A stretch of DNA of 64,000 nt, from assembly GCA_030828385.1 (NCBI GenBank), contig JAURCS010000002.1, positions 61,338-125,337 of the forward strand. The letters are read 5' to 3'. A program made the translations under genes and the position numbers. This document shows positions 2,558-63,715 of this stretch, in pieces. The DNA is from Gammaproteobacteria bacterium (GTDB lineage: Bacteria > Pseudomonadota > Gammaproteobacteria > Pseudomonadales > Pseudohongiellaceae). The notes beneath the pieces are model-generated. The model ran no database searches, was not told the DNA's origin, and worked only from the letters and a program-made list of their open reading frames with translations. Each line of letters begins with the position of its first letter. Position 1 is the stretch's first letter.

Positions 2558-3523
2558 TTACGGAATATTTAACAATCTGAAATTCTGGGCATCGCGATAA
2601 CGTCCCTGAAAACTCTGGAAAGCCAGTGTCATAAACAGGGTTGGGTCACCCATTTGCGCCTCAAATTCTGCGGTGTGCTTTTCTGCCAGTATATCTTCAA
2701 GATCATAGCTGCTGATTACTGAAGCATGAAGGCGGTCAAAAATAGTCAGGTACATCTGGTTTTGCGCCTTGAGTTCATCGAGGTTCATGATGTCACCCCA
2801 GGCAGGAATGATTCGGGTATTCTGATCCGGCACCGTCAGCAGTGAAACAAAACTATCCAGCATGCCTCCAATATAACCCCCGGTACTCCAGTCTATTTCA
2901 GGCCAGCGACCATTGGACACCAGGCCACCGGTAACCAGTACATTTTCTTCTTCAAAATACACCCAGATATCACCATCGGTATGTGCATTCCACAAAAAGC
3001 CATAAAACACCGAGCGATCACCCAACTGTAGCACACCATCATCCCAAAGCGTTGTTACAGGCAGGCCTGCCTCGGACAGCGGGGCATACTTTTTGTCAGC
3101 CCAGCGTTGCCATACGTGAGTACTCAGCCAGAGCATGGTGTTTTCGTGAGCTATAATTTCAACGCCGGCGGAACCCAATGGCACATTGGCTCCGGTCTGT
3201 TCCCGATGCCACTGGGTGTTTATCAGGGCTCGGATGGGAACGCCGGGAAAGGCCTCCTCAACGACCTGACGTAAACTGTCATACCAATCGGCATGCCCAC
3301 CATCTACCAGAATAACGCCTTCACTGCTTTCCACTGCCAGTACATTGCCATCGGGCCCTTTCACGAACAACATCCGCTCTGACAGGGCAATTGTTTCCAG
3401 GGGGATTGTCTGTGCCTGCAGAGGCGCAGACAACAGCATGCAACATGCAAGCGACAGCGGCATCATCAACAGGCTCTGCAGATACTTACTGCAGGCAGAC
3501 AGGGAATTGATTATGTTCATCAT
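2558..3523 (-). CDS. Exported metallo-beta-lactamase-fold protein with degenerate metal site, copy A
   Basis: 321 residues with an N-terminal hydrophobic signal ending near LSAPLQAQ, so probably periplasmic. The MBL fold is recognisable (GVILVDGGHADW; AHENT; HTDGDIWVYF; IIPAWGD). The catalytic HxHxDH motif is replaced by Q104-W-H106-R-E108-Q109. The usual Asp after the second half-motif is Gly (VTGG), and the usual PGHG His is Trp (PAWG). His106 and His181 remain. By comparison with working MBL enzymes it is probably not a normal dinuclear hydrolase; it could bind one metal or act as a binding protein. It is the most degenerate of the three module-type MBL proteins here. It precedes the PSD diheme gene and is divergent from the secreted protein gene at 3824. 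The fold is sure; activity is doubtful. Confidence 0.88.
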   Translation of the reverse strand: MMNIINSLSACSKYLQSLLMMPLSLACCMLLSAPLQAQTIPLETIALSERMLFVKGPDGNVLAVESSEGVILVDGGHADWYDSLRQVVEEAFPGVPIRALINTQWHREQTGANVPLGSAGVEIIAHENTMLWLSTHVWQRWADKKYAPLSEAGLPVTTLWDDGVLQLGDRSVFYGFLWNAHTDGDIWVYFEEENVLVTGGLVSNGRWPEIDWSTGGYIGGMLDSFVSLLTVPDQNTRIIPAWGDIMNLDELKAQNQMYLTIFDRLHASVISSYDLEDILAEKHTAEFEAQMGDPTLFMTLAFQSFQGRYRDAQNFRLLNIP

Positions 3524-32696: not shown

Positions 32697-34304
32697 ATGA
32701 AAAGACTACTCCGGCTTTCTATCATTCTTTTATCTCCCGTCTTCTCCGCTATGGCGGACAACGATATTGTTACGCTGGTAGCCAACAACCAGGCTGATTT
32801 GGCGATGCAAAGTATTGCCAGTGGTGGCGATGTAAATGCAACCCAGGCAGATGGCACTACCGCCTTGATGTATGCAGCCTATCTGGGCGATGCCGAGCTG
32901 GTCGCCGCTCTGGTAGCTGCCGGCGCTGAAACCAACGTGAGCAATGACTATGGTTCCTCGGCAATTCTGGAGGCTTCCATAACAGGCGCCACAGATGTCC
33001 TCGAAATTCTGCTGGCCCATGGCGCAGACGCCAATTGGCGTAACCCGGAAGGAGAAACACCGCTGATGAATGTAGCCCGCGCCGGACAACTACAGGCAGC
33101 AGAATTATTACTTGCCAACGGCGCCCAGGTAGATGCAGTAGAACAATGGGGCGGACAAACCGCCCTGCTCTGGGCCGCCGCCCAGCAGCAACCCGAGATG
33201 ATTGCCCTGCTGATTCGCCATGGAGCTGACGTTAACCACACCAGTATTGTCAGGCAGTGGGATCGCACCATTCTTAACGAACCGCGTCCGTTGACCTACA
33301 ACAGGGGTGGTTTTACCGCCTTGCACTTTGCAGCCCGCGAAGGGTGTACCGAATGCGTTCGCGTGTTGACCGAGGCTGGCGCCGATACTGATATCCACGA
33401 TCCGGAACGGGTCACGCCATTAAACGTTGCGCTGTTGAATCAACACTTTGCCACGGCTGCAGCGCTGATAGACGCTGGTGCCGATGTAAATAAATGGGAT
33501 ATCTATGGCCGTACCCCACTGTTTAACGCCATTGATCTGCACACCTTGCCAATTGGCGGTCGACCTGATATTCCCAGTAGCGATCTCATCAGCGGCCATG
33601 ACATTGCGGCCATGCTGCTTGAGCGCGGCGCCAATCCGAATATCCAGCTAAAACTGGTACCGCCTTTACGCAACGCCATCTATGATCGCGGTTCCGACAA
33701 AGTCCTTACCACCGGAGCTACACCACTGATGCGTGCGGTAAAAGGGGGCGACCTGGAAAGTACACAACTGTTGCTGGAATACGGTGCTCTGCCGGATCTG
33801 CCAAATAAGGAAGGCCAGACACCGATGATGATTGTGGCTGGCATTGGTCATACTTCCTCACCAACCCGGGGCGCTTTTCGTACGCAACAGCAAAGCATTG
33901 ACGCTATTCAACAGTTACTGGATGCCGGCGCTGACATTAATGCCTTATCCGGTGATCCGGCATTGCCACCAGGAGTAAGCGTTGTCGATTATCAGCGCGA
34001 CAAGACACCGCACCCCGCCAACGAGGGCGAAGTGGTTATCCATGGGCAGACAGCATTGCATGGCGCTGCCAAACAGGGCTGGACAGAAGTCGCTCGTTTT
34101 CTTATTGAAAATGGCGCCCAACAACAGGTGGTTGATGATGCCGGCAGCACACCTTTTGATCTGGCCATGGCTCGCTATGCCCCAGCCTATAATGACACGC
34201 CACCATTGCCTTTCTTTGAAACCGCACAATACCTGCAACAGGAATGTGCCCGGGTCGATGGCTGTGTGATACCTGACCCTATCAATAGCGAACTGGTACC
34301 TTAA
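32697..34304 (+). CDS. Exported ankyrin-repeat protein 1
   Basis: 535 residues. The signal peptide ends near VFSAMA. About ten to twelve ankyrin repeats follow (for example 'DGTTALMYAAYLGDAELVAALVAAGAETN', 'GETPLMNVARAGQLQAAELLLANGAQVD'). After the sixth repeat comes an insert with 'NEPRPLTYNRGGFTALHFAAREGCTECVRVL', containing a CxxC pair, which is shared with the two other ankyrin proteins here (EPRAQ-Y/F-RPTGG). Ankyrin repeats bind other proteins; export to the periplasm is unusual for them. Unlike the other two copies it is not next to a PSD or MBL gene; a VOC protein gene follows after 36 bp. Confidence 0.92.
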   Translation: MKRLLRLSIILLSPVFSAMADNDIVTLVANNQADLAMQSIASGGDVNATQADGTTALMYAAYLGDAELVAALVAAGAETNVSNDYGSSAILEASITGATDVLEILLAHGADANWRNPEGETPLMNVARAGQLQAAELLLANGAQVDAVEQWGGQTALLWAAAQQQPEMIALLIRHGADVNHTSIVRQWDRTILNEPRPLTYNRGGFTALHFAAREGCTECVRVLTEAGADTDIHDPERVTPLNVALLNQHFATAAALIDAGADVNKWDIYGRTPLFNAIDLHTLPIGGRPDIPSSDLISGHDIAAMLLERGANPNIQLKLVPPLRNAIYDRGSDKVLTTGATPLMRAVKGGDLESTQLLLEYGALPDLPNKEGQTPMMIVAGIGHTSSPTRGAFRTQQQSIDAIQQLLDAGADINALSGDPALPPGVSVVDYQRDKTPHPANEGEVVIHGQTALHGAAKQGWTEVARFLIENGAQQQVVDDAGSTPFDLAMARYAPAYNDTPPLPFFETAQYLQQECARVDGCVIPDPINSELVP

Positions 34305-43299: not shown

Positions 43300-44871
43300 T
43301 TAATCGCCAGCCAGCAAGTCATTTACCATGGCGATCATCGCTTCGCTTTGCAGCCTGTCTGCCCTGCCGCCTGCATTATTGGCAGTGGCTGCATCAAGCA
43401 GATTTTTCCCTTGATCATCCACCGCATGGATATCTGCGCCATGGTCAACCAACCAGGACACCACTGTCATCCAGTTTTGCTTGGTAGCGGCAAAGATCGG
43501 CGTCTGCCCCTGGCGATTCGTCATGGTAGACATCCGGGCAATGCGGGCATTATGACTTTGGGTATCGCTGACCCGACGGTTGATATCGGCGCCCGCTTCC
43601 AATAACACCTGCAGAACCGGGATTACCCTGTCTTCCCTGCCCGGCTCGAAAGTTCCGCGCAAAATACTGCGCCGGTTACCGAAACCCGCAGCCGCCATGA
43701 ACGGCGTAACCCCCATCACATTGGGCAGTTCCACATCAGCACCGAATTCCAGCAGCAGTCTCACCGCGTCCAGATCATGGGAATTGGCAGCCCGCAATAA
43801 CGGCGTCGCCCCGGTAGTGAGTTGATCATCCACAAAGCGGCCACTGTTACCACCACGGCCCGGTCGATGAAAATTTAACTGGGGATCAGGATTAACCCCG
43901 GCTTCCAGTAATTGCCGGGCAACATCAAGCGCTGTAACACTGATGCTGGCATTATCATCGCTACCGCGACCTGGCAGAGTATTCATATCAATAGCGATAT
44001 ACAGCGCAGTACGCCCCCACCAGTCCCATAGATGGGGATTAGCGCCCAGCTCCAGTAATAGTTTTGCTGTATCAAAATGCTGATTATCAATGGCAATCAT
44101 CAAGGCAGTAACCGCATCCGGCGATGGTTTATTGATATCTGCTCCAGCTTCCACAATAGCTTTGGCGCAATCAGTACAGCCAGTACGCGCCGCATAAAGT
44201 AAAGCGGTAAGACCACCGGTGGGCCGGTACTGGGCTCTCGGTTCCGAGGTGATCTGACTACCCCAGTCAAAGGCACTGGCCCGCACACTGACATCGGCAC
44301 CATGCTCCAGCAACAAGCGCGTCATTTCTCCATGGTTGTTTCCAGCAGCCCACATCAGGGGAGTCTGACCACGCCATTGCTCAAGCACATTTACCTCTGC
44401 GCCATATTTCAGCAACAGTTCAGCGACCTCTACTACCCCGGTACGCGCTGCCAGCATGAGAATAGTCTGGCCGTCAGCATTGGCAGCTTCAGGATCAGCC
44501 CCCGCCTGCAACAGCATATCTACCAGCACCACGTTACCCACCTTGACCGCTTCGGCAAGAGGACTGGAACCATAATTATTCATGATATTGGGATCCGCCT
44601 CTCTGGACAGCAAGGCTTCAGCGAGAGCAGGATCGACGTTGTAGACGGCCCACAATAAAGCCGTTGAGCCATCCCCCTGGCGCATGTTGACATCCGCACC
44701 GACACGAATCATTTCCAGCGCCTGCTCGCGCTCACCTTGCTGAATCAAATCCGGCAGAGAATCTGCAGCATTTGTTACGAAAGAAAGAGACAAGAGGCAA
44801 GAGGCAAGAGACAAGCAAGCCCCCTGCCTCGACATGAAAGTTTTAAAAAGTTGAATGGCTTTATTTCCCAT
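43300..44871 (-). CDS. Exported ankyrin-repeat protein 2 (module copy B)
   Basis: 523 residues. The signal peptide's hydrophobic core (LSLASCLLSLSFV, about 20-32) is encoded by a tandem heptanucleotide repeat. About ten ankyrin repeats follow ('DGSTALLWAVYNVDPALAEALLSREADPN', 'GQTPLMWAAGNNHGEMTRLLLEHGADV'). The insert 'SEPRAQYRPTGGLTALLYAARTGCTDCAKAIVEAGADI' carries the conserved CxxC. The C-terminal repeats include 'RQGQTPIFAATKQNWMTVVSWLVDHGADIHAV'. Its place after PSD and MBL genes matches copy C at 62135. Ankyrin repeats mediate protein binding; in the periplasm it may hold module parts together (inference). Confidence 0.92.
   Translation of the reverse strand: MGNKAIQLFKTFMSRQGACLSLASCLLSLSFVTNAADSLPDLIQQGEREQALEMIRVGADVNMRQGDGSTALLWAVYNVDPALAEALLSREADPNIMNNYGSSPLAEAVKVGNVVLVDMLLQAGADPEAANADGQTILMLAARTGVVEVAELLLKYGAEVNVLEQWRGQTPLMWAAGNNHGEMTRLLLEHGADVSVRASAFDWGSQITSEPRAQYRPTGGLTALLYAARTGCTDCAKAIVEAGADINKPSPDAVTALMIAIDNQHFDTAKLLLELGANPHLWDWWGRTALYIAIDMNTLPGRGSDDNASISVTALDVARQLLEAGVNPDPQLNFHRPGRGGNSGRFVDDQLTTGATPLLRAANSHDLDAVRLLLEFGADVELPNVMGVTPFMAAAGFGNRRSILRGTFEPGREDRVIPVLQVLLEAGADINRRVSDTQSHNARIARMSTMTNRQGQTPIFAATKQNWMTVVSWLVDHGADIHAVDDQGKNLLDAATANNAGGRADRLQSEAMIAMVNDLLAGD
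44781..44815 (-). repeat. Heptamers CTTGTCT/CTTGCCT inside the ankyrin 2 signal-peptide codons
   Basis: Read on the minus strand: CTTGTCT, CTTGCCT, CTTGCCT, CTTGTCT, CTTTCTT, at exact 7-base spacing. Seven is not a multiple of three, so any gain or loss of one unit would shift the frame just after the start. Confidence 0.78.
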
Positions 44872-44895
44872 AATGATTCTCTAAACCTGCCCCAC

Positions 44896-44958: not shown

Positions 44959-44962
44959 TTTG

Positions 44963-45904
44963 TTAAACAATATTTGGCTCAAGTTTATTATGATGCGCCC
45001 ACAAGCCTTTATGCGCGTCATACAAAAACCTGTAGGGATCATCAAAGCGTCTTGGCAGCTTATCCATCACGCCACTGGCCAGGGAATCCTGCGCATCAAA
45101 GCCCATACGAATCTGATCAACCAGGGTTTCATACAGAAACTGCATAAGATCTCGCTCTGACTCGACATAGGCCCTGCTTACACTGGCAGAGCCATAGGAC
45201 GGTACAAATTGCGTATCGGTATCACTGATATCCAGTAGCAGATTCAGCGCATCCACCCTGCCGCCAATCCAGCCACCACTAAACCAGTCAAAATCCGGGT
45301 CAATGCCGGGCGAGATGACATCACCTGCAGCGATGATATTGGCGTTGCCAAAGTGGACATAGATATCGCCATCGGTATGGGCGAGCTCCAGGTAACCATA
45401 AGCAATTTCTTCATCGGCTTCCTTCATCTCACCCTGCGTATAAAAAGTGTTGCGGGGATGAGCTGCTGTCGGCATGGCAGGCTGATACCTGTCTTCTTCA
45501 AACAGATAATAGTCTGTCGCCAGATGCAGCCTGGTTTTTTCATGGGCAATGATGTTGGCGCCCTCACCAGCAAAATAGGCATTGCCACCCACCTGATCCT
45601 GATGCCAATGACTGTTAAACAAAGTCTTCACTCTGACCCCGTCACCATAGCTGTTCACTACTTCCTGCAATGACCCGGTGGCATTCATGGCGCCACTGTC
45701 TACCAGGATGAGACCATCATCGGCCTGAAAAACCAGCACATTTGCGCCAACGCCGTTGATAACCGACACTCTCTCACTCAGTGGTGTTACTGCGTAGGCC
45801 AGAGCCGCGCCCGATATGCCTGGCACAAGCATAGCACCGAGCACCGTCGCAGATCTGGCCATAAACAGACGACGATTCGAGTTTAAAAAATGCTTTCCAG
45901 TCAT
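44963..45904 (-). CDS. Tat-exported MBL-fold protein with altered metal site (module copy B)
   Basis: 313 residues. The N-terminus has a twin-arginine motif (NRRLFMARSATVLGA), so folded, possibly metal-loaded, export is expected. Site-1 ligands are kept: H99-W-H101 and H176 (LAHTDGD); D103 and D195 (AAGDVIS) also remain. The usual His after D103 is Gln104, and the usual PGHG His is Tyr237 (PSYG), so a second metal site is impaired. It may be a mononuclear enzyme or binding protein. It starts 3 bp after the PSD diheme gene, so it is translationally coupled, and is followed by the ankyrin gene. Confidence 0.9.
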   Translation of the reverse strand: MTGKHFLNSNRRLFMARSATVLGAMLVPGISGAALAYAVTPLSERVSVINGVGANVLVFQADDGLILVDSGAMNATGSLQEVVNSYGDGVRVKTLFNSHWHQDQVGGNAYFAGEGANIIAHEKTRLHLATDYYLFEEDRYQPAMPTAAHPRNTFYTQGEMKEADEEIAYGYLELAHTDGDIYVHFGNANIIAAGDVISPGIDPDFDWFSGGWIGGRVDALNLLLDISDTDTQFVPSYGSASVSRAYVESERDLMQFLYETLVDQIRMGFDAQDSLASGVMDKLPRRFDDPYRFLYDAHKGLWAHHNKLEPNIV

Positions 45905-45907
45905 TGC

Positions 45908-48349
45908 CTACTCCCCGCTCGCAATGGCAACCTGCGTTGCCTTTTCAGTTTCATCATGGGGTAGTGCCTGCATGCGAAACGCGTCGCTGTTCACAATACC
46001 CATCACCAGGGAAGAAAGTGTGTAGTCATCATTTGCTGCATTACGAACAATGGCGCGTACCTGGGGCATATCGAAATACTCAAGTTCGCGGTTGATGGCA
46101 TACATCATCAGTTTTTCTGTGATGGCCTGGGCAAATTGTGCCGGCCTGCTGGCCAACTCATTGCGCAACTCAATAACACCGTTAATAGCTGTGCCATTAG
46201 GCAGTACAGTCCTTGCATCTATGGGCGCATCAGCAAGACTGTCAATGTCGCGCCACCTGCCAGTGACACTGAAGTTTTCCAGCGCCAGTCCGATAGGATC
46301 GATAACTCCATGGCACTGATTACAACCGGGTTTTGATCTGTGCTGCTCAAGACGGGCACGCACTGTGGTTGGTTTCTGCCCTTCAGGCACGGACAGATCT
46401 GTCTCTACATTCGGAGGTGGTGGTGCTGGTGGCGTACCCATCAGTTTTTCCAGCACCCAGGCACCACGCAACACCGGGGAGGTTCTGTCACCGTAGGAAG
46501 TTCTTAACAGCGTAGCTCCTTTACCGAGAATTCCAAAACGTCTTTCATCGGTCAAAGTAACTTTTCTGAACTGACTGCCATGGACACCTTCAATACCATA
46601 ATGACGAGCCAGCGCTTCATTCAGGAAAGTGTAATCTGCCTGCAGTAATTCAATTACCGGGCGATCCTCCAACAGCACACTGGACAGGAACAGAGCGAGC
46701 TCACGGCTGAAATAATCAAACATCTTCTCATCGAAACCGGGAAACAGGCCCGGATCCGGCTCAATCACTGTCAGCTCATCCAGGTTCAGCCATTTCCGGG
46801 CAAAACTGTTGACCAGATGCTGCGCACGGGAATCAGCCAGCATGCGCGAAACCTGTGCTGTTATAACTTCCTCGTTATCAAGTGCGCCCGCTTCCGCCAG
46901 TTCCAGCAAGGGGGTATCCGGCCCCTGACCCCAGAGGAAAAAGGACAGCCTGGATGCCAGCTCCAGATCACTGAGAGCAAAAACCCTGGCATCGCCAATG
47001 TCGCGCAGGGGTGAAATTCCCCGATAAAGAAAATCCGGACTGGCAAGAATGGCCGCAACCATCTGCTCAACGCCTTCATCAAACCCACCGGGACCTTCAC
47101 GGCCCATCTCAAAAAACGGCAACAACAGATCCAGATCCTCCCGGGTCACTGGCCGGCGATAGGCACGATGGGCCAATTGCTCCGCGATACGGGTAGCGCA
47201 GGGTATTTCTTGCGCCTCGTTTTCTGGCTGGCAAACAAAAATCCTGGCCCGGCTTTCAGTCATGGATATGCCACTGGCATTGAAGGGACCATTGATCTCA
47301 ATACCATCCAGCAGCCTTGGCACCCTCAGTGAACCGGTAAAAGCAAAGCCACCATAGGGGGTAAAACCACCAATCAACTCGTCGGTCTCAACACGGGCAC
47401 GCTCAATAAAGGTGACAACAATTTCATGTACTCCTGCTTTCACATCCAGCGGAATATCCTTGAAGCGTTCCATAATAAGGTTACTGGCCGGAGCGCCGCC
47501 TTTGTTAACCAGAGCAAAATCTTCAGGCCCGCCTATGTTTTCACTGAACACTTCAACGCCGGCTACCAGCACTACCAGTGTCTGTTCAGTTTCTATAGAG
47601 CGCGGATACAGGCCAACATCAAGATCGAGAATATTGAGCCGGTATTCACCATCGGCAGGAAAATTGTGAGTGACCTTGATCCCGCCACGCGTACCCAGAG
47701 GAAAACCTTCCTCATAAGTATCCTGATCGCCACTGATCACCTGGTAATAGGCATTGGCAACTTTGGGCACCGGCTGGCCTACCGCCATTTTCGCGACTGC
47801 CCGGGCCACATTAATATACTGCTCCAGAAATGATGGCGAAACACTCAGTGCGGCAGCAATATTGTCAAAGCCGTCTACTTCAATATCCATGGGCAGGTAA
47901 TCGGCAGCATTGATTTCAATACCCAGCAATTCCCTTACCGCAATGGCATATTCTGTTCGGTTCAGTCGCTGTACCGGGACATGTCCCGCCATGGCATCAT
48001 GGTCAAGGCTAATAGCCTCATCGAGATTGCTTTCCATCCAGGCAACAAAGCCGTCGATTACTTCCTGGTCCGGCTGCTCACTGCCAGGGGGAGGCATCAG
48101 GCGTCCGCGCAGTTTTCGCACAGCGGCCTCCCAGACCGGAGCTTCTCCGGCTACGTTCTCCAGGGACATCAAGTCAAATGCAACACTGCCAGCCCAGTCT
48201 TCACTGTTATGGCAATCACTGCAGTAAGTGTTCAGCAGGGCCTCATGTTGCCCGGGTATCAGACTTGCATCAGTAATGGCTGATTGCTGCGCCAACCCCT
48301 GTGACAAGAAGCCAAGCCAGAGCATAAATAGTAGTATCGATCGTTTCAT
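45908..48349 (-). CDS. Diheme PSCyt/PSD-family exported protein, copy B
   Basis: 813 residues with a cleavable signal (LGFLSQGLAQ). CxxCH motif 1 is C43-S-D-C-H47. DUF1587 follows (LNRTEYAIAVRELLGIEIN), then a carbohydrate-binding-like middle part, DUF1595 (AHRAYRRPVTREDLDLLLPFF), DUF1592 (ELASRLSFFLWGQGPD), DUF1588 (TSYGDRTSPVLRGAWVLEKLMGTPPAPPPPNVE) with motif 2 C676-N-Q-C-H680, and DUF1585. It probably carries two hemes c in the periplasm. It is the first gene of module copy B, ahead of MBL and ankyrin genes; this copy has no DUF1552 gene in line. Much closer to copy C than to copy A by eye. Confidence 0.94.
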   Translation of the reverse strand: MKRSILLFMLWLGFLSQGLAQQSAITDASLIPGQHEALLNTYCSDCHNSEDWAGSVAFDLMSLENVAGEAPVWEAAVRKLRGRLMPPPGSEQPDQEVIDGFVAWMESNLDEAISLDHDAMAGHVPVQRLNRTEYAIAVRELLGIEINAADYLPMDIEVDGFDNIAAALSVSPSFLEQYINVARAVAKMAVGQPVPKVANAYYQVISGDQDTYEEGFPLGTRGGIKVTHNFPADGEYRLNILDLDVGLYPRSIETEQTLVVLVAGVEVFSENIGGPEDFALVNKGGAPASNLIMERFKDIPLDVKAGVHEIVVTFIERARVETDELIGGFTPYGGFAFTGSLRVPRLLDGIEINGPFNASGISMTESRARIFVCQPENEAQEIPCATRIAEQLAHRAYRRPVTREDLDLLLPFFEMGREGPGGFDEGVEQMVAAILASPDFLYRGISPLRDIGDARVFALSDLELASRLSFFLWGQGPDTPLLELAEAGALDNEEVITAQVSRMLADSRAQHLVNSFARKWLNLDELTVIEPDPGLFPGFDEKMFDYFSRELALFLSSVLLEDRPVIELLQADYTFLNEALARHYGIEGVHGSQFRKVTLTDERRFGILGKGATLLRTSYGDRTSPVLRGAWVLEKLMGTPPAPPPPNVETDLSVPEGQKPTTVRARLEQHRSKPGCNQCHGVIDPIGLALENFSVTGRWRDIDSLADAPIDARTVLPNGTAINGVIELRNELASRPAQFAQAITEKLMMYAINRELEYFDMPQVRAIVRNAANDDYTLSSLVMGIVNSDAFRMQALPHDETEKATQVAIASGE

Positions 48350-55537: not shown

Positions 55538-56890
55538 TCAAACTTCAGAAATAATGCCGGTGGCGTTAGCCCATTGATCCACTTCGATACCGAGTTTATC
55601 CAGCATGGTCAGATGCAGGTTGGCTATTGGTGTACGCTCTGGCAGATCAACATGTTGCCCCCCGAGCTTCATGGTCCCCGCACCACCGCCTACCAGGATG
55701 TTGGGGACCGGATAATTATTATGCATATCGCTGTTGCTCATATTGGAGCCATACATAAACAGCGAGTTATCCAGCAATGAGCCTTCACCATCAGGGGTAT
55801 TCGCCAGCTTATCCAGGAAGGCACTGAATTTCTCAACGTGCCAGGTCTGAATCCGCACCAATCGGCGCAGGCGCTCCAGATCGTTGGCATGATGTGACAG
55901 CGGATGAAAGGCATCCGGTACACCGATGTGGTTATAGGTACGATTGGTACCTTCTGACACCATAATATAGGAAGCAACACGCGTCAGGTTGGCCTGGTAA
56001 GCCAGCGCAATCAAATCAAACAACAGTTTTACCTGCTCATCAAATCGGTCCAGTTCACCCACCGGCGCCTGGGGAATATCAAAGCCGGACAGATCCTGTC
56101 CTGCCGCCATATTTACGCGGCGCTCAATTTCACGCACGGTATCAAGGTAGCCATCCAGCAACAGCTTATCACTGGGGCCAAGGGTTTTCTGCAGCGCATT
56201 GGTGCGCTCGGCGATCAGATCAAGAATACTGGCTTTCTGTCGAATGATCGCATTACGTTCCTGGGAATTATCCCCTTCGCCAAACAGTTGCAGGAAAATC
56301 TTGCGTGGATTGAATTCCATCGGCAAAGGCGAGTTGGCGTTTCTGAAGGAAAGTGTGGAGGAGTAGTAACAGCCCCCGGTCCCGCCTCCGCAAGCCGCCA
56401 CCTGAACCGTGGTTTCAGCCGCCACTTCGAGCGATGGTAGCGCGGTATCCTGGCCAATGTGCTGGGCAATCACCTGATCCAGCGTAGTGGACATACTGGC
56501 CCCGGCAGCAGCACTGTCCGGTCGCACGCCACTGAGCCAGGTCGCTGGAACGATGGTGTGCACAGAGCCGGCACTGGCGGCGTTTTCCAGATTACCAAAA
56601 GAGTTTACGTATTGCTTATGGGGTTCAAGTGAGGCCAGTATTTTGCTGAGCTCAAAATTATCTCCGGCACCACGGGGTGTCCAGCTATCGAGTTCCGGGC
56701 CATGGGCAGTGTTATGCATGATCGCGCCATGGGGAATGTAAAAGAAACCGGTACGAATCTTCCCGGCGGCAGCTGTCTGGGCCAGCGCCGTACTTGCCGG
56801 AACCATGGCGTCCAGAAAGGGCAGCGCCAGTGATACACCCGCGCCTCTGAGAACCGCACGTCGACTCAGGTGTTTTTTGGTAAGAAACAT
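55538..56890 (-). CDS. DUF1552 (HXXSHH) Tat-exported protein, divergent copy
   Basis: 450 residues. Twin-arginine signal (SRRAVLRGAGVSLALPFLDAMVP). The family's name motif is present as H329-P-L-S332-H333-H334. Other marks: 'RTGFFYIPHGAIMHN', 'LPMEFNPRKIFLQLFGEGD', 'LLFDLIALAYQANLTRVASYIM', 'NSLFMYGSNMSNSDMHNNYPVPNILVGGGAGTM'. A Cys pair CGGGTGGC (167-174) is specific to this copy. DUF1552 genes usually pair with PSD diheme genes. Here it is divergent from module copy C by 354 bp, while copy C has its own DUF1552; it may serve copy B or be a spare. Confidence 0.93.
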   Translation of the reverse strand: MFLTKKHLSRRAVLRGAGVSLALPFLDAMVPASTALAQTAAAGKIRTGFFYIPHGAIMHNTAHGPELDSWTPRGAGDNFELSKILASLEPHKQYVNSFGNLENAASAGSVHTIVPATWLSGVRPDSAAAGASMSTTLDQVIAQHIGQDTALPSLEVAAETTVQVAACGGGTGGCYYSSTLSFRNANSPLPMEFNPRKIFLQLFGEGDNSQERNAIIRQKASILDLIAERTNALQKTLGPSDKLLLDGYLDTVREIERRVNMAAGQDLSGFDIPQAPVGELDRFDEQVKLLFDLIALAYQANLTRVASYIMVSEGTNRTYNHIGVPDAFHPLSHHANDLERLRRLVRIQTWHVEKFSAFLDKLANTPDGEGSLLDNSLFMYGSNMSNSDMHNNYPVPNILVGGGAGTMKLGGQHVDLPERTPIANLHLTMLDKLGIEVDQWANATGIISEV

Positions 56891-57244: not shown

Positions 57245-59746
57245 ATGAAAATCGACAAAGTATCTGAATTTACCACACAGCGACATAATTACATGAGTAA
57301 CAAAGAAAGTATGTTTGGCTCCGCAATCAGTTCAAAACACGCACAGGGCTATAGCCCAGCATGTTCCCTTAAAGCACTGGCCAGTCTGTTTGTGCCTTTC
57401 ATCTGTCTGGCATTTTCTTTTCAATCTGCCAACGCCCAGGATTCCGCCCAGGACCTTATCCAAACCTATTGTGTCGACTGTCATAATCTTGAAGATTATT
57501 CCGGTGGCATTGCTTTCGACCTGATGGACATGAATCAACTCACCCAGGATCATGAAACCTGGGAAATGGCAATCAACAAGCTGCGTGGTCGCCTGATGCC
57601 ACCCACCGGAGCAATGCAACCCAGCCAGGTTGAAGTTGACACCCTGGTCAGCTCACTGGAAACCTCTATCGACTCCAGTCTGGAAGAAATGCATATCGGC
57701 CATGTGCCGGTTCAGCGTCTTAACCGAACCGAATTCGCGACAATCGTGGAAGACCTGCTGGCAGTGGAAGTTGACCCTGCCCAGTTACTGCCCAGTGAAA
57801 TTGAAGTGGAAGGTTTCGATAATATTGCCAACGCGCTGGGCTCATCCCCTTCTTTTCTGGAACAATATATCGCGGCTACACGCCTGGTCGCCACCGAAGC
57901 GGTAGGCGCCCCGGTACCCAAATTTGCCAACGTGTTTCATCCACTGCCCGATCGTGGTTTTGGCAGCAATGTCTCCCGTGACCACATTGATGGCTTTCCT
58001 CTGGGCACCCGTGGCGGCATGCGCTTCACTCACTTCTTTCCCTCGGACGGTGAATATCGCTTCAGTATTCTTGATATTGATGCCGGCCTCTATCCCCGCG
58101 GTATGGAAACTGCTGCCACCATGGTTATCCTGGTTGATGGCAAGGAAGTAAACCGTATCGATATTGGTGGCCCGGAAGACCTGGCTATAGCAACCCGCGA
58201 CGGCGTTGTTGGCGGTGATGTCATCCTGGCAAAACTGGCAGGGCTTTCCGCGGATGTCGAAGTAGGCACCCATGAAGTGATCGTTACCTTTATTGAGCGC
58301 TCCTGGGGCGCCAGCAACAATGCTACCGGTAATGGCAGAGTATCCGGTATGCCCAGAATCGGTCTCGGCGTCGAAGTTGAAGGGCCGTTTAACCCTACCG
58401 GCCTTTCCCTCAGCGAAAGTCGGGAAAGAATTTTCACCTGCCAGCCCTCGGAATTGGCAGAAGAACGTCCCTGTGCAGAAAACATTGCACGAAATCTGGC
58501 CACCAAAGCTTTCCGTCGTCCGGTGACCGATGAAGACCTGGAATGGTTGATGCCGTTCTATGAAGTCGGGAGTGCTGAAGCCGGCGGTTTCGATGCAGGC
58601 GTAATTGAACTGGTAACGGCCATACTCTCAAGCCCTGATTTCCTCTTTCGCTCATTAAAAATTACCTCAAACGAGCCCAGAGTACTTAATGATGTGGAGC
58701 TGGCATCGCGCCTGTCTTTCTTCATGTGGAGCCAGGGCCCCGATGAAGAATTGATTGCACTGGCCTCCGAAAGCAAGCTTTCCGATCCTGAAGTCATGGC
58801 GGCTCAGGTTCTGCGTATGCTGGCAGATCCGCGCGCCAATTCATTGATCGAAAATTTTGCTCTGGCCTGGCTTAACCTTGATGAACTGGATGCAGTCCAG
58901 CCTACCGAGCGGGGTTTTAATGATGCCATGCGCACCAACTTCGAGAGAGAAATCCGTCTATTTCTGGCCAGCGTGCTACTGGAGAACCGCAGCGTGCATG
59001 AATTGCTCACCGCTGACTGGACCTACCTTAATGACTCACTGGCTCGTCACTACGGTATTGAAGGCGTCCTTGGCAGCCAGTTCCGTCGCGTCACCCTTGA
59101 GGATGACAAGCGCTGGGGCTTGCTCGGCAAAGGGGCCACCCTGCTAAGAACCTCTTACGGCGATCGCACCTCGCCGGTGTTGCGCGGTGCCTGGGTCCTG
59201 GATCGCATCCTCGGAACACCGCCGGCACCACCGCCTCCGAACGTGGAAGTGGACCTTTCGATCCGCGAAGGTGAAGCCCCTACTACTGTTCGTGCCAGAC
59301 TGGAAGTACACCGCGAGAACCCAACCTGTCAGGCCTGTCATGGCGCCATCGATCCGCCCGGACTGGCATTGGAGAATTTTGACCTTACCGGACGCTGGCG
59401 CGATGTTGACCGTCAGGCCAATGCTGTCATTGATGCCTCTACCATTCTCAATAGCGGCATAGAAATTAATGGCCCGAGCGAACTGCGCGAGCATCTGTTA
59501 AGCAGGGAAGATCAGCTGCCTGCTACCATCACCAAACGTCTGATGATGTATGCCATGAATCGTGAAATTGAATATTTTGATATGCCGCTGGTGCGAGAAA
59601 TTGTACGTGAATCAGCTGAACAGAATTACACCTTTGCCTCTATTATTACCGGCATCGTCAACAGTCCTGCTTTCCGAATGCAGGGTCCGGAAGAAAACCA
59701 CGACGAGTCGGCTGTAGCACTCGCAACAAACGAATCAGGGAGATAA
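57245..59746 (+). CDS. Diheme PSCyt/PSD-family exported protein, copy C
   Basis: 833 residues from ATG 57245, but Met codons at 57293 and 57311 are possible; none has a good ribosome site, and the first would be nearly leaderless given the -10 box at 57230. The signal core is 'ALASLFVPFICLAFSFQSANAQ'. Heme motifs are C76-V-D-C-H80 and C695-Q-A-C-H699. Domain order is PSCyt1, DUF1587, middle part, DUF1595, DUF1592, DUF1588, DUF1585, as in copies A and B. It begins the most complete module: DUF1552 starts 3 bp after its stop, then MBL and ankyrin genes. Electron transfer is likely; substrate unknown. Confidence 0.94.
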   Translation: MKIDKVSEFTTQRHNYMSNKESMFGSAISSKHAQGYSPACSLKALASLFVPFICLAFSFQSANAQDSAQDLIQTYCVDCHNLEDYSGGIAFDLMDMNQLTQDHETWEMAINKLRGRLMPPTGAMQPSQVEVDTLVSSLETSIDSSLEEMHIGHVPVQRLNRTEFATIVEDLLAVEVDPAQLLPSEIEVEGFDNIANALGSSPSFLEQYIAATRLVATEAVGAPVPKFANVFHPLPDRGFGSNVSRDHIDGFPLGTRGGMRFTHFFPSDGEYRFSILDIDAGLYPRGMETAATMVILVDGKEVNRIDIGGPEDLAIATRDGVVGGDVILAKLAGLSADVEVGTHEVIVTFIERSWGASNNATGNGRVSGMPRIGLGVEVEGPFNPTGLSLSESRERIFTCQPSELAEERPCAENIARNLATKAFRRPVTDEDLEWLMPFYEVGSAEAGGFDAGVIELVTAILSSPDFLFRSLKITSNEPRVLNDVELASRLSFFMWSQGPDEELIALASESKLSDPEVMAAQVLRMLADPRANSLIENFALAWLNLDELDAVQPTERGFNDAMRTNFEREIRLFLASVLLENRSVHELLTADWTYLNDSLARHYGIEGVLGSQFRRVTLEDDKRWGLLGKGATLLRTSYGDRTSPVLRGAWVLDRILGTPPAPPPPNVEVDLSIREGEAPTTVRARLEVHRENPTCQACHGAIDPPGLALENFDLTGRWRDVDRQANAVIDASTILNSGIEINGPSELREHLLSREDQLPATITKRLMMYAMNREIEYFDMPLVREIVRESAEQNYTFASIITGIVNSPAFRMQGPEENHDESAVALATNESGR

Positions 59747-59749
59747 ACA

Positions 59750-61090
59750 ATGGCTCATTTTCTCACCAAGAAACATCTGTCCCGACGTACACTTCTGCGC
59801 AGCGGTGCAGTAGGCCTGGGACTGCCCTTTCTGGACGCCATGGTACCGGCAGGGACGGCGCTGGCTCAGGTTGATGCCATGCCCAAAAAACGTGCCGGAT
59901 TTTTCTACCTGCCCCATGGCACCATTATGAACAATACGCCTTTAGGTAAAGAGGTTGATAAATGGACCTGCACGGGTTCCGGTGACAACTTTCAGCTTGG
60001 CAGTATTCTTGAGCCACTCGATCCGCTAAAACAGTACCTCACCACATTCGAAAATATTGAAAACACTGCTGCCGGTGGCTCAGTGCATACGCTCAATCCA
60101 GCGACCTGGCTTTCCTGTGTGCGGCCTGGCACTGGCTCCACTCCGGAACTTGCGACCACACTGGACCAGGTCATTGCCCAGCAGCTGGGTCAGGAAACCG
60201 CGCTGCCTTCCATGGAACTGGCGACAGAGACCACTATTCAGGTGGCTGCCGGCAACGGTGGCTTTTATGCGGTGACCACGTCTTTCTCTGCTCCCAACAA
60301 ACCGTTGCCCATGGAATTTAATCCGCGCAAGGTTTTCATACAGTTGATGGGACCCTATGACACCCAGGAAGAGCGAGAAATGATCCTGCGAAAAAACAGC
60401 AGCATCCTCGACATGATTGCCGATCGCACCCGGGCACTGCAGAAAGACCTTGGTACCGGTGACCGCGCCTTGTTATCTGATTATCTCGACACCGTTCGCG
60501 AAATAGAACGCCGCGTTCAGCTGGCTGGTGAACAGGACCTGTCAGGCATTGATGTGCCGACCGCTCCGGTAGGTGAGTTCGAGAACTTTGATGACCAGAT
60601 CACCATGATGTTTGATCTGATTGCCCTGGCGTATCAGGCAGACCTGACCAGAATCTCCACCCTGGTGATGGCTGCAGAAGGCACCGACCGCACCTATCCA
60701 CAGGTGAATGTCGCCGGTGGTTTCCACCCTACCAGCCACCACACCAATAATCCCGAACGTATTGCCGAGCTGATTCGCATTCAAAGTTACCACATGAAGC
60801 ATTTTGCACGCTTCGTTCAGAAACTCGCCGATACCCCTGACGGCGATGGCAGCATACTGGACCATTCCCTGTTCCTGTATGGCTCCAATATGGGCAACAG
60901 TAATCAGCATGACAATTATCCGCTACCGGCAATTCTTATGGGCGGTGCCAGCGGCGCTGTCAGAGGTGGCAAGAACATTATCCTGCCTGAGCGTACCCCG
61001 CTAGCCAATGTGCACCTGACGATTCTCGAAAGACTGGGCATCCCTCAGGAAAGTTTTGGCAACAGCACCGGAACCATCGCCGAAGTTTAA
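59750..61090 (+). CDS. DUF1552 (HXXSHH) Tat-exported protein, module copy C
   Basis: 446 residues. Twin-arginine signal (SRRTLLRSGAVGLGLPFLDAMVP). HXXSHH motif H326-P-T-S329-H330-H331. The N-part 'RAGFFYLPHGTIMNN' and the C-part 'HSLFLYGSNMGNSNQHDNYPLPAILMG' match the divergent copy at 55538. The His-rich motif suggests metal binding, and the fold may be related to the alkaline phosphatase/sulfatase group (from memory). The 3-bp gap after the PSD gene implies translational coupling and equal expression. Exact function is unknown. Confidence 0.94.
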   Translation: MAHFLTKKHLSRRTLLRSGAVGLGLPFLDAMVPAGTALAQVDAMPKKRAGFFYLPHGTIMNNTPLGKEVDKWTCTGSGDNFQLGSILEPLDPLKQYLTTFENIENTAAGGSVHTLNPATWLSCVRPGTGSTPELATTLDQVIAQQLGQETALPSMELATETTIQVAAGNGGFYAVTTSFSAPNKPLPMEFNPRKVFIQLMGPYDTQEEREMILRKNSSILDMIADRTRALQKDLGTGDRALLSDYLDTVREIERRVQLAGEQDLSGIDVPTAPVGEFENFDDQITMMFDLIALAYQADLTRISTLVMAAEGTDRTYPQVNVAGGFHPTSHHTNNPERIAELIRIQSYHMKHFARFVQKLADTPDGDGSILDHSLFLYGSNMGNSNQHDNYPLPAILMGGASGAVRGGKNIILPERTPLANVHLTILERLGIPQESFGNSTGTIAEV

Positions 61091-61122
61091 AAGATATCCA
61101 AAGAAGTATAAGAACAGAAATA

Positions 61123-62103
61123 ATGAGCAGGCTGTTTATGAAGAAGAACGAGCGTAGAACCATTCTGAAGGCTGGTTTACATGGCCTGGTCACCGTGCCT
61201 GTGCTTGGTGGACTTGCCAGTTGCTCTGATGACCAGCAAGCCGGGGAACAGCCAGCTCCACAAATTATTGCAGCGCCAACCCGCTTGCCAAGCGAAGCTC
61301 TTAGCGATTCAGTCACGCTGCTCAGTGGCGCACCGGGCAATGTCCTTGCCCTGACCACTGACGATGGCCTGATGCTTATCGATAGTGGCTCGGCAGCACT
61401 GGCACCCTCTGTGCAACTCAGTCTTGACGCTCAACATGTGAGCACCCTGTTCAATACCCACTATCATCCGGATCAAACTGGCGGTAACGCACTCTTTGGT
61501 GAAGCCGGTGCGGCAATTCATTCCCATGAAATTACGCGTCAATGGCTGTCTTCTGATTATTACATTCCAGCAGAAGATCGCTGGGTAAACGCCCTTCCTG
61601 GCGTGGCACGCCCTACTCATACTTTCAGAGATAAAGGCGAGATGACGGCAGGATCGGAAACCATCGAATACGGTTATCTGCTGGAAGCACACACTCGCGG
61701 CGATGCCTATGTATTCCTGCGTGATGCCAATATTCTGGCAGTAGGTGATGTGGCTTCTCCATTACGGGATCCTGAGCTCGACTGGTATGCCGGCGCCTGG
61801 CTCGGCGGACGTGCGGATGCCATGGATGACATTCTGGAACTGGCAAATGCCGACACACTTATCGTCCCGGCCTATGGCGAAGTCATGACTATGGCCGAGT
61901 TTCAGGCCGAGCGCGACATGATGTGGCATTTATGGGAACGCTGTTCGACCCTGGTCAGTAATGGTCGCAGCGCGCAGGATATGCTGGAAGACGGTGTGAT
62001 GGATGAGATTGATCGTGAATTTGATGATCCCTATCGTTTCCTTTACGACGTAGCCAAGGGGCTATGGGCGCACTATACAAATTTCGGTGGCAAAACTGTT
62101 TGA
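61123..62103 (+). CDS. Tat-exported MBL-fold lipoprotein with altered metal site (module copy C)
   Basis: 326 residues. The signal has a twin arginine (ERRTILKAG) and then a lipobox (GLASC, Cys34), so it is a probable Tat lipoprotein. Metal motif H113-Y-H115-P-D117-Q118: the usual last His is Gln. H190 (EAHTRGD) and D209 (AVGDVAS) are present, but the PGHG His is Tyr251 (PAYG). This is the same pair of losses as in copy B, so it is a family trait rather than decay. It lies 32 bp after DUF1552 and 31 bp before the ankyrin gene. Confidence 0.92.
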   Translation: MSRLFMKKNERRTILKAGLHGLVTVPVLGGLASCSDDQQAGEQPAPQIIAAPTRLPSEALSDSVTLLSGAPGNVLALTTDDGLMLIDSGSAALAPSVQLSLDAQHVSTLFNTHYHPDQTGGNALFGEAGAAIHSHEITRQWLSSDYYIPAEDRWVNALPGVARPTHTFRDKGEMTAGSETIEYGYLLEAHTRGDAYVFLRDANILAVGDVASPLRDPELDWYAGAWLGGRADAMDDILELANADTLIVPAYGEVMTMAEFQAERDMMWHLWERCSTLVSNGRSAQDMLEDGVMDEIDREFDDPYRFLYDVAKGLWAHYTNFGGKTV

Positions 62104-62134
62104 GCTCGGCTCTACTTTTATAAGGTTTCTGGAA

Positions 62135-63715
62135 ATGAAAAAACTTTTAATAAACTTGATCGGGCCCTGTGCAGTGAGTCTGCTGACCTTGTTGTCATCT
62201 GCCACTTTTGCACAGGACAGCCTTATTGACCTTATTCGTGACGGCCAGCGCGACGCTGCTCTGTCCGCAATCTCCGCGCCAGATACCGACATCAATGCAA
62301 GCACCGAAGATGGCGCTACTGCGCTGCATTGGGCTACCTATTCTGTAGATCATGAACTGGTAGTAGCTCTGCTTGATGCCGGCGCTGTGGCTGATACCAC
62401 CAATCTATATGGCTCAACGCCATTAACCGAGGCGATTAAACTGGGAGATGTTGCGCTGGTAAAATTACTGCTGGATGCCGGTGCTGACCCCGATTCACCC
62501 AACCAGGACAACCAGACCGCACTAATGCTGGCATCCTATATTGGCTCACTGGAAATAGCAGAAATGCTGATTGCCAAAGGCGCTGATGTCAATGCGGTGG
62601 AAACCTTCCGCGGCCAAACGGCGTTGATGTGGGCGTCTGCTGAGAATAATCCTGATGTTGCCGAGTTGCTCCTTGAAAATGGTACCGACGTACACGTGAA
62701 AGCGGTCCATGATGACTGGCCACGACAGATGACATCCGAACCTCGTGCCCAGTTCCGCCCTACCGGTGGGCTGACCGCACTGCTCTATGCAGCGCGCTCG
62801 GGTTGCTACCGTTGTGCAACAGGCATCGTTGAGGCAGGAGCAGATATCGATCAGCCCAATCCGGATGGGGTAACACCGCTAATCAATGCACTGGATAACA
62901 AGAGCTTTGATATCGCCATGTACCTGATTGATCAGGGCGCCAGAGTCAATGTCTGGGATATGAATGGCCGCACTCCTCTCTATCTGGCCATCGACATGAA
63001 TTCCTTCACCCCAAGAGGTTTTTTTGGTGGCACAGTGGCTACGGCTCCCCGTGATTCACAAACCTACACCGCCCTGGATGTGGCCAGACGACTGATTGAC
63101 ATGGGCGTTGATGTTAATCATCAGATGACCCGAATTCGTCCCAACGGTCCTGGCCGGGGTCGCTTTGCTGACTATGATATGCGCGGCGGAACCGGAGCAT
63201 TGATGGTAGCCACCTTCAGTCATGACCATGAAGCCATGGAACTGTTACTGAATAATGGCGCAGAAGTGGATCTGCCCAATGTATTCCAGATCACACCATT
63301 TATGTATGCCACGGGCATGAGCGGGAACGGTCGCGGACCCGGCGGCAATCTCGATGGCATTCAGGAACGTGCTATCAAGTCTATTGATCTACTACTGGAT
63401 GCGGGTGCCGATATCAATGCCCAGGTACCCGGTAGCCGCACCTTCACCGGTCAGCTTGATACCTATATTCAGGGCCGGGACAACGAAGGTCGCACGGCTC
63501 TGCATAACGCTGCCGAACTGGGTTGGGAAAAAGTAGTAGCGCATCTATTGGAACGCGGTGCCGACCCATCTATTGTCGATGCGGAAGGCCAGACAGCTCT
63601 GGATGAGGCGCTGGCACCGGTGATGAATGGTCCAGGTGGGCGTAACCGGCCTGATAGTGGTGATCGTGAAGCAACTGTTGCGCTGTTAAGTTCTGCCCTG
63701 GCAGAATCTGAGTAG
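62135..63715 (+). CDS. Exported ankyrin-repeat protein 3 (module copy C)
   Basis: About 526 residues from ATG 62135, which opens the signal peptide (LLTLLSSATFAQ); the frame extends upstream over the MBL end but without a signal. About ten to twelve ankyrin repeats, for example 'DGATALHWATYSVDHELVVALLDAGAVADT' and 'GQTALMWASAENNPDVAELLLENGTDVHV'. The shared insert 'SEPRAQFRPTGGLTALLYAARSGCYRCATGIVEAGADI' has the CxxC pair. C-terminal repeats: 'EGRTALHNAAELGWEKVVAHLLERGADPSIVD'. It is the last gene of the module. As in copies 1 and 2, export of an ankyrin protein is the unusual point. Confidence 0.93.
   Translation: MKKLLINLIGPCAVSLLTLLSSATFAQDSLIDLIRDGQRDAALSAISAPDTDINASTEDGATALHWATYSVDHELVVALLDAGAVADTTNLYGSTPLTEAIKLGDVALVKLLLDAGADPDSPNQDNQTALMLASYIGSLEIAEMLIAKGADVNAVETFRGQTALMWASAENNPDVAELLLENGTDVHVKAVHDDWPRQMTSEPRAQFRPTGGLTALLYAARSGCYRCATGIVEAGADIDQPNPDGVTPLINALDNKSFDIAMYLIDQGARVNVWDMNGRTPLYLAIDMNSFTPRGFFGGTVATAPRDSQTYTALDVARRLIDMGVDVNHQMTRIRPNGPGRGRFADYDMRGGTGALMVATFSHDHEAMELLLNNGAEVDLPNVFQITPFMYATGMSGNGRGPGGNLDGIQERAIKSIDLLLDAGADINAQVPGSRTFTGQLDTYIQGRDNEGRTALHNAAELGWEKVVAHLLERGADPSIVDAEGQTALDEALAPVMNGPGGRNRPDSGDREATVALLSSALAESE

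Follow-up and report, generated by a model that had tools for sequence, protein, structure and literature searches.

The stretch analysed here (the window, 64,000 nucleotides) raises the question of whether four neighbouring genes for exported proteins, which we call copy C, belong to one functional unit, and what such a unit might do. The genes of copy C are:

57245..59746, plus strand: PSD, a diheme DUF1587/1595/1592/1588/1585 protein with a Sec-like signal
59750..61090, plus strand: DUF1552 (HXXSHH) protein with a Tat-type signal
61123..62103, plus strand: MBL-fold protein with an HYHPDQ motif, three-His site kept
62135..63715, plus strand: exported ankyrin-repeat protein (ANK), likely starting at ATG 62135

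All window open reading frames sit at the coordinates given earlier, and the spacing of 3, 32 and 31 bp that an earlier note gave for this run was confirmed (59747-59749, 61091-61122, and 31 bp if the ankyrin gene begins at ATG 62135, a likelier start than the GTG at 62087 where its open reading frame is listed to begin). An inner ATG may be the true start of the copy C PSD, and the N-terminus of the MBL looks Tat/lipoprotein-like by eye. No terminator-like site was found on the plus strand between 54800 and 64000; the five sites found were all on the minus strand, with a chance expectation of 7.7. A Pfam scan of ten window proteins confirmed their families. The PSDs match PF07631/PF07627/PF07624/PF07626/PF07637 and have a cytochrome domain at the N-terminus (above cut-off in copies C and A, below it in copy B), the DUF1552 proteins match PF07586, the MBLs PF00753 and the ankyrin proteins PF12796.

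Related genes occur elsewhere in the window:

2558..3523, minus strand: copy A MBL
17..2488, minus strand: copy A PSD, N-terminus lipoprotein-like by eye
45908..48349, minus strand: copy B PSD
44963..45904, minus strand: copy B MBL
43300..44871, minus strand: copy B exported ankyrin protein
55538..56890, minus strand: DUF1552 protein, head-to-head with copy C; by relatedness most likely the copy B partner
32697..34304, plus strand: extra ankyrin gene, with relatives in the L037/L038 set

Copy A had been described as an MBL and a PSD; both are present, but they are not the whole set, as the copy continues beyond the window with DUF1552 and an ankyrin gene (L026, 13202-10353), giving the order MBL-PSD-DUF1552-ANK. 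Copy B does lack DUF1552 at its locus, as had been noted, but its partner is probably the gene at 55538, which stands apart yet is most likely not the orphan it was taken for. That gene has its relatives in common with copy B: its profile correlates at 0.929 with the copy B PSD, versus 0.355 and 0.283 with the two other orphan PSDs, and the nearest module of the copy B PSD, the copy B ankyrin protein and this DUF1552 is the same one (L058). Because copies B and C are sisters, and the DUF1552 of copy C also correlates with the copy B PSD (0.819), the assignment is likely but falls short of proof. The missing DUF1552 in copy B suggests that genes were rearranged rather than that the set was composed differently. 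The extra ankyrin gene, also reported as lone, does lie apart but is not unattached, since it groups with the L037/L038 set (0.86/0.905).

The gene set to which copy C belongs is conserved and occurs about 15 times in a genome of 2.62 Mb. The core of the set is a diheme DUF1592-type PSD, a DUF1552 protein and an exported ankyrin protein, and the MBL is optional: it recurs, as its earlier listing as a module member implied, but it accompanies 9 of the 15 copies here and lies near 14 of 40 DUF1552 genes in three other genomes. Genome-wide there are 15 PSDs, 17 ankyrin genes, and 17 DUF1552 matches in 16 places, one DUF1552 being a broken gene that reads as two pieces. Weak PSD4 matches also occur at L046, L047, L051 and L052. 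All 80 Ank_2 matches in the genome fall within the 17 ankyrin genes (lists compared by eye); every one of these 17 belongs to the module family, and 16 are clustered with a PSD or DUF1552 gene, so the clustering is not due to chance. Sampled genomes of the same genus and a sister genus carry 12-19 DUF1552 genes each.

The gene set is also found in other Gammaproteobacteria, in Acidobacteriota and in some Alphaproteobacteria, among them a Novosphingobium sp. KACC 22771 plasmid (L137), whose record is named and derives from soil. A conserved neighbourhood in other genomes, on which the earlier note had staked its reading, is present, with gene order kept across phyla. Among 80 relatives, 36 had 5 kb of sequence on both sides of the PSD, and near these we found DUF1552 in 35, an ankyrin gene in 35, both in 34 and an MBL in 17; contig ends truncate the remaining 44, which had DUF1552 in 40, an ankyrin gene in 31 and an MBL in 19. 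A sample of 40 DUF1552 genes from three genomes (19 of 19 in G479, 12 of 12 in G476, 9 of 13 in G483) had a PSD nearby in 39 cases and an ankyrin gene within 5 kb in 37; those lacking a near ankyrin gene were L157, L160 and L177, and the one lacking a PSD, L146, sits at a contig start. Outside this PSD clade, defined on a quick-search version of the PSD tree, none of 14 PSD–DUF1552 pairs had an ankyrin gene nearby.

Distances within the families were correlated for PSD and DUF1552 (0.816, n=123), PSD and ankyrin protein (0.764, n=110), PSD and MBL (0.804, n=51) and DUF1552 and ankyrin protein (0.840, n=107), and 0 of 999 permutations gave values as high; judged by these distances, the four families are co-inherited. 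Correlated distances are expected for any genes that move as one unit. That linkage alone makes linked genes co-vary would also be the argument for regarding the neighbourhood as chance or shared history with no common function, but the same set occurs in two phyla in near 1:1:1 numbers, gaps are short (no more than 100 bp between PSD and DUF1552, overlaps included, in 138 of 146 same-strand neighbours), and the parts of split copies can still be matched. The neighbourhood and co-inheritance data already disfavour this explanation, and we consider it highly improbable.

The sequences of the core proteins suggest what a common function might involve. Two CxxCH motifs were present in the PSDs of 130 of 135 modules, residues C76, C79, H80, M118, C695, C698 and H699 are kept in every row occupied at those positions (131 to 136 rows), and PSD3, PSD5, PSD4, PSCyt3 and PSD2 all exceed their Pfam cut-offs within one chain in copies A, B and C, which by motif and domain identifies the PSD as a diheme protein of the PSCyt3/PSD (DUF1592-type) family. 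DUF1552 scored 244.7 bits against an HMM cut-off of 30 bits and carries an HxxSHH motif, whose H326, S329, H330 and H331 are found in 125, 120, 125 and 124 of 125 aligned rows (copy C counted twice); R12, R13, H113, D139, D221, D238, R250, E253, H326, H330 and H387 are present in all 125. The export signals attributed to the module proteins were found in most members of each family, with a twin-arginine pattern in 119 of 123 DUF1552 proteins and 42 of 51 MBLs versus 16 of 110 ankyrin proteins and 13 of 135 PSDs. A sequence search of solved structures found no relative of PSD or DUF1552, the matches listed having E values of at least 0.53. Profile comparison indicates that DUF1552 is distantly related to DUF1501: the match is full-length and co-linear (score 40.9, 312 columns, probability 51%), versus at most 22.7 in 24 control comparisons, after row L182 was dropped for its wrong frame and a version with signal peptides was set aside. 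DUF1501 proteins also have twin-arginine N-termini, but they form a separate Pfam family, and one of two DUF1501 subgroups had no DUF1552 match. The alkaline-phosphatase superfamily was considered as a wider home for DUF1552; here three single DUF1501 proteins gave one weak match to Phosphodiest and one to DUF229.

Metal binding by DUF1552 and the MBL, as proposed in the earlier note, has partial support: the former has invariant His and Asp residues and a twin-arginine motif, and the three-His site of the latter is kept in 46 of 51 MBLs, but its second metal site (D120, H121, H263) is intact in 3 of 51. H263 itself is present in 4, and all seven metal ligands occur together in 2. The idea of a dead enzyme, drawn from 9 sequences, was dropped given the conservation of the three-His site among the 51. 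By profile the fold resembles that of subclass B1 metallo-beta-lactamases (BcII, E 1e-16), in contrast to which both metal sites (HxHxD, H196, D/C221, H263) are not kept intact in module MBLs; the three proteins scanned fell far below the curated cut-offs. Membership among SoxH-related quinoprotein relay MBLs (TIGR04558/9) was also rejected, at 35-50 bits in three proteins against a cut-off of 280-300. In the ankyrin family, five residues among H, C, M, W, Y, D, E, R, K, N and Q are conserved at 0.90 or above; none is a His, Cys or Tyr, which argues against a conserved heme ligand.

That last point bears on the nearest published parallels, in which an ankyrin protein is linked to a heme protein: AnkB-KatB of P. 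aeruginosa, Cj1386-KatA of C. jejuni and ank-katE of Leptospira, where heme catalases are reported to require ankyrin proteins. The module likewise encodes its ankyrin protein beside a heme protein (heme by motif only), and AnkB is periplasmic according to a paper title, so that by analogy the PSD could be a peroxide-defence heme protein and the ankyrin protein its heme chaperone. KatB, KatA and KatE-type partners are, however, catalases with b-type heme, unlike the module, whose PSD carries the motifs of c-type heme, a cofactor attached by the cytochrome c maturation system. In addition, the module ankyrin proteins show no conserved heme ligand, and 15 diverse copies would be odd for a single stress. 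We regard a role in peroxide defence as quite improbable.

The planctomycete-type PSCyt3/PSD and DUF1552 genes (Rhodopirellula, Verrucomicrobia, Planctomyces) are alike in domain families, export and high copy number, but the one locus read (L139) had no ankyrin or MBL partner. DUF1592 and DUF1552 genes are neighbours on a plasmid of Planctomyces SH-PL62. In passages of the literature, PSD-type proteins are called unexplained, DUF1552 is described as secreted in R. baltica, and PSCyt3 genes are said to adjoin one of two families of uncharacterised genes (PMC5615132, whose text contains DUF1552 three times, although that statement does not name it). The main texts in one open-licence library yielded no paper naming DUF1592 and DUF1552 together and no description of an ankyrin-bearing version of the set; "ankyrin" was absent from the main text of those papers naming either family that were checked for it, including PMC7789669. 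The literature consulted also includes PMC2754498, PMC11442138 and PMC7567364. In Sphingobium, PSD and DUF1552 genes are neighbours in one gene run, followed by cytochrome c' and cytochrome b561 genes; here the cytochromes are separate, the one PSD scanned (TomTYG64, L138) lacks the N-terminal cytochrome domain, and no ankyrin gene was found.

Gene neighbours elsewhere suggest a redox context. In L204 and L205 the gene after PSD-DUF1552 encodes an FCSD-type flavoprotein, the PSD is fused to a glucose/sorbosone dehydrogenase (GSDH) and CBM26 in L206 and L210, and PQQ dehydrogenases lie within 5 kb of 21 of 136 loci (five locus pairs being the same place twice, and one pair overlapping), adjoining the module in L217 and less than 1 kb away in L218. 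An amine oxidase and a cytochrome c lie 2-3 kb away in L214, and L137 has a molybdopterin protein at about 4 kb. The PQQ, amine oxidase and molybdopterin neighbours and the PSD-GSDH fusions might be explained if the module were an electron sink for separate dehydrogenases of the periplasm (PQQ, flavin, molybdenum) with genes close by, DUF1552 not being the catalyst. We consider this possible but unlikely: 115 of the 136 loci, including many truncated ones, have no PQQ-cluster member within 5 kb, none was recognised by eye in L219 or L220 (one neighbour scanned), and the invariant His and Asp residues of DUF1552 look like a catalytic set. In the source genome the excess of PQQ genes near modules is weak (4 of about 23, p about 0.04, flank share estimated). 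DUF6152, near 17 of 136 loci, was dropped as a module part because it has 52 matches genome-wide; a "PDLSGSW" family stands beside 26 of 136 loci (raw count), and the one member scanned had no Pfam match.

The fused domains could also mean that the module attacks carbohydrates or polymers made of them at the cell envelope, where the MBL would open the resulting lactones. Among PSDs that do not belong to the ankyrin clade, some have CBM26 together with GSDH (L206, L210) or have CBM2 (L204), L212 has a match to cellulose-binding Sde0182 overlapped by a stronger PKD match, and published excerpts list a CBM2-bearing DUF1592 protein in a lignocellulose community (PMC6004670) and PSCyt genes with CBMs in Verrucomicrobia (PMC5615132). 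This we think unlikely, as the ten scanned window proteins had no carbohydrate-binding domain and so few MBLs keep the second metal site.

The conserved, co-inherited genes for exported proteins, present about 15 times here, are best read from their sequences as a periplasmic oxidoreductase, each copy with a different substrate, a reading to which we give a probability of roughly 0.45. DUF1552 would fold and receive its metal in the cytoplasm, be exported by Tat, and hold the substrate at its invariant His/Asp site, while the PSD would take electrons through its two c-type hemes for transfer to the respiratory chain. For the PSD–DUF1552 pair, the ankyrin protein may serve as a dedicated scaffold or assembly factor, and the MBL, where present, an accessory one-metal hydrolase, perhaps acting on the oxidised product; a carbohydrate or alcohol is the best guess for the substrates. 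The single periplasmic complex proposed earlier is plausible, although co-inheritance of linked genes is by itself no proof of contact. More tentatively, and with some doubt, the module could be a new class of periplasmic oxidation machine, in which a diheme PSD is combined with a metalloenzyme that resembles DUF1501 and is exported by Tat, and with an ankyrin scaffold to match; each small genome would keep at least a dozen old versions, every one specific to its substrate. This repertoire may be likened to those formed by SusCD-type loci in Bacteroidetes. Through the fixed exported ankyrin partner, the near 1:1:1 counts and the repertoire of old copies, two orphan families become a single system that can be tested, and if the substrate-specific oxidoreductase reading is true, a large share of the periplasmic oxidation carried out by Acidobacteriota and uncultured Gammaproteobacteria may have been overlooked.

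The module joins a diheme DUF1592-type (PSCyt3/PSD) protein, PSD, a DUF1552 protein and an exported ankyrin protein, ANK, with an optional metallo-beta-lactamase-fold protein, MBL. An ORF check of the window bore out the positions and intergenic gaps in the earlier note, and a Pfam scan its family names. Four features matter here:

57245..63715, plus strand, module copy C
43300-48349, minus strand, module copy B, with PSD_B and ANK_B
55538..56890, minus strand, lone DUF1552 gene
32697..34304, plus strand, lone ankyrin gene

The window (G000:C72:61338-125337) ends at its contig end, in a genome of 2.62 Mb and 149 contigs. Profile searches of this genome gave 15 matches to PSD4, a Pfam domain of PSD, and 17 DUF1552 matches at 16 sites, a broken gene on contig C61 being seen as two pieces. 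All 80 genome-wide Ank_2 matches, compared by eye, fell inside 17 ankyrin-family genes, and reading the 17 fetched regions placed 16 of these in clusters with DUF1552 or PSD, the exception being the lone gene at 32697. MBL genes, counted only within the module family, were present in nine copies. Beside one ankyrin gene, and without PSD, a DUF1552 gene persists as two overlapping ORFs (L040:8754-9963), probably a decaying module copy. If split parts are paired as matched below, the genome would hold about 15 sets (15 PSD, 15 DUF1552 and 15 ANK genes), plus this broken remnant and one extra ANK. The genome also has a very high number of matches (52 in 2.62 Mb) to DUF6152 (PF19649), a functionally uncharacterised family. 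Between copies B and C (51368-53527) lies a large protein in which, by eye, an MBL-like domain seems to precede cyclic-nucleotide-binding-like sequence, and near copy A is a tannase/feruloyl esterase gene (PF07519; 4710-6311); members of a tannase-type protein cluster were seen near modules at 7 of 136 loci.

A scan with a PSD alignment, aimed at close relatives by choice, yielded 80 loci, the best 80 of at least 589 confirmed relatives. By title these best 80 were mostly Gammaproteobacteria or "Proteobacteria", with many Acidobacteriota (Terriglobia, Bryobacterales and Vicinamibacteria) and few Alphaproteobacteria, all from MAGs. One MAG record with the module, L079, is titled Klebsiella pneumoniae, a name probably wrong for the bin. 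The conserved neighbourhood anticipated earlier extends beyond the own genome: among these best 80, the 36 loci with 5 kb on either side of PSD had DUF1552 at 35, ANK at 35, both at 34 and MBL at 17, and the 44 cut by contig ends had DUF1552 at 40, ANK at 31 and MBL at 19. DUF1552 sites were also read by genome in three of eight genomes themselves reached through PSD-scan loci (G479, 19/19; G476, 12/12; G483, 9/13), and these 40 DUF1552 genes had PSD within 5 kb in 39 cases, ANK in 37 and MBL in 14.

At phylum level 6 of 299 genomes carried DUF1552, and among 58 relatives, own genome counted, 27 did; PSD4, counted likewise, turned up in 7 of 140 class-level and 6 of 56 order-level genomes. DUF1552 matches numbered 12-17 per genome in six other genus members, 14-19 in five sister-genus genomes and 0-5 in the other six sampled genera of the family. 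Genomes with identical match coordinates were taken as one each: G482 (locus of MAG WB5_5_057) with G484, and G480 (SI072_bin121) with G488, in the same genus, and G479 (UppL6_bin-1235) with G500 in the sister genus.

Mantel correlations across 135 modules (999 permutations) were 0.816 for PSD and DUF1552 (n=123), 0.764 for PSD and ANK (n=110), 0.804 for PSD and MBL (n=51) and 0.840 for DUF1552 and ANK (n=107), with 0/999 permutations as high. The own genome alone gave 0.817 (n=12), 0.760 (n=13) and, for PSD and MBL, 0.641 (n=7; 5/999 permutations as high). The module sets travel together; contact does not follow from these correlations.

Pairing without ankyrin was found among 22 further PSD-DUF1552 loci (18 picked from profile-search matches and four of 16 plasmid records), where all eight with PSD scores of at least 719 had ANK and all 14 scoring 378 or less lacked both ANK and MBL. 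A quick PSD tree of 82 rows (the 15 own ones, 45 drawn at random from the rest and the 22 further loci) placed all 55 ANK rows on one 68-row branch (SH-aLRT 96), with 14 distant rows outside. Inside that branch 13 rows were labelled as lacking ANK, two of them own-genome orphans; many were contig-end cuts or outside length or strand limits (e.g. L102, L088, L132), and at least one, L076, seems truly to lack it. The own PSD copies grouped with copies of other phyla in this tree, so the module set is old and reflects no recent burst.

Split parts were matched by identity profiles across 106 complete modules, copy C excluded. The DUF1552 gene at 55538, previously described as lone, is separate from copy B by position but is likely its partner: its profile correlated at 0.929 with PSD_B, versus 0.355 and 0.283 with two other orphan PSDs, and the module nearest to it, PSD_B and ANK_B alike was L058 (PSD-DUF1552-MBL-ANK). 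This assignment stays short of proof because B and C are sister copies and the DUF1552 belonging to copy C likewise has a profile correlated with PSD_B (0.819) and with the gene at 55538 (0.923). Outside the window, PSD L036 pairs with DUF1552 and ANK of L039 (0.922/0.866; both loci cut by contig ends), and PSD L037 with those of L038 (0.897/0.898). The ankyrin gene at 32697, also called lone, is indeed the sole own one outside a cluster, but relatives tie it to the L037/L038 set (0.86/0.905).

Of 135 PSD proteins 130 carry two CxxCH motifs; PSD also has an invariant C399/C410 pair and, in 132 of 132 rows, M118, which lies within an LMPP stretch that fits an axial Met. In DUF1552 the R12 R13 of the twin-arginine signal and H113, D139, D221, D238, R250, E253, H326, H330 and H387 are each invariant (125/125 rows, copy C counted twice). 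For MBL, in standard numbering, the ligands H116, H118 and H196 occur in 46, 47 and 50 of 51, whereas position H121 holds Gln in 25 and His in 18, position D221 Asp in 24 and Gly in 23, and position H263 His in four. The three His occur together in 46 of 51, D120-H121-H263 in three and all seven ligands in two, so one three-His site is conserved and the second site mostly lost, in partial support of the metal binding suggested earlier. Twin-arginine patterns occurred in DUF1552 (119/123), MBL (42/51), ANK (16/110) and PSD (13/135), and N-terminal hydrophobic stretches, versus inner controls, in ANK (107/110 vs 66/550), PSD (109/135 vs 28/675), DUF1552 (70/123 vs 24/615) and MBL (20/51 vs 27/255); from these counts we read PSD and ANK as putative Sec substrates, and DUF1552 and most MBLs as putative Tat substrates.

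With the signal peptide removed, hhalign matched DUF1552 to five proteins of DUF1501, a distant candidate relative, across 312 columns at a score of 40.9 (probability 51%), against a maximum of 22.7 among controls (PSD, MBL, ANK, the reversed DUF1501 alignment and 20 versions of it with shuffled columns). No match to DUF1552 came from a second DUF1501 subgroup. Searched singly, one DUF1501 protein weakly matched Phosphodiest (E 0.008) and another DUF229 (0.17), families of the alkaline-phosphatase superfamily.

Gene context speaks for a redox role of PSD-DUF1552. In Sphingobium genes for cytochrome c' and cytochrome b561 come after the pair, and in two distant genomes the gene next after DUF1552 encodes an FCSD-type flavoprotein (L204:4459-5757, L205:4738-6042); the L204 PSD is a fusion with CBM2 and an additional cytochrome c. 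Single chains of 2157-2232 aa (L206:6959-13657, L210:1220-7693) combine CBM26 starch-binding modules, a glucose/sorbosone dehydrogenase domain and a PSD/PSCyt3 part. Among few-copy genomes, a PQQ dehydrogenase adjoins the module in L217 and lies <1 kb off in L218, and an amine oxidase and cytochrome c lie 2-3 kb from it in L214; in L219 and L220, with one neighbour domain-scanned, inspection by eye picked out no such dehydrogenase. In the own genome 4 of about 23 PQQ genes lie near modules, a weak excess with the flank share estimated. The commonest extra neighbour (26 of 136 module loci) is an exported-looking "PDLSGSW" family (e.g. L114:7658-8380), one member of which had no Pfam match when scanned.

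The reading we favour, at somewhat under an even chance (roughly 0.45), is that the module would be a periplasmic oxidoreductase in which DUF1552 would provide the substrate and metal site, PSD would carry electrons and ANK would serve as a dedicated scaffold or assembly factor. By analogy with published ankyrin-heme-protein pairs, an assembly role for ANK is reasonable, although the module ANK alignment has no conserved heme ligand. The literature consulted treats PSD and DUF1552 proteins as known and unexplained, and their pairing is already visible in annotated records; no description of the ankyrin and MBL version was found in the literature searched.
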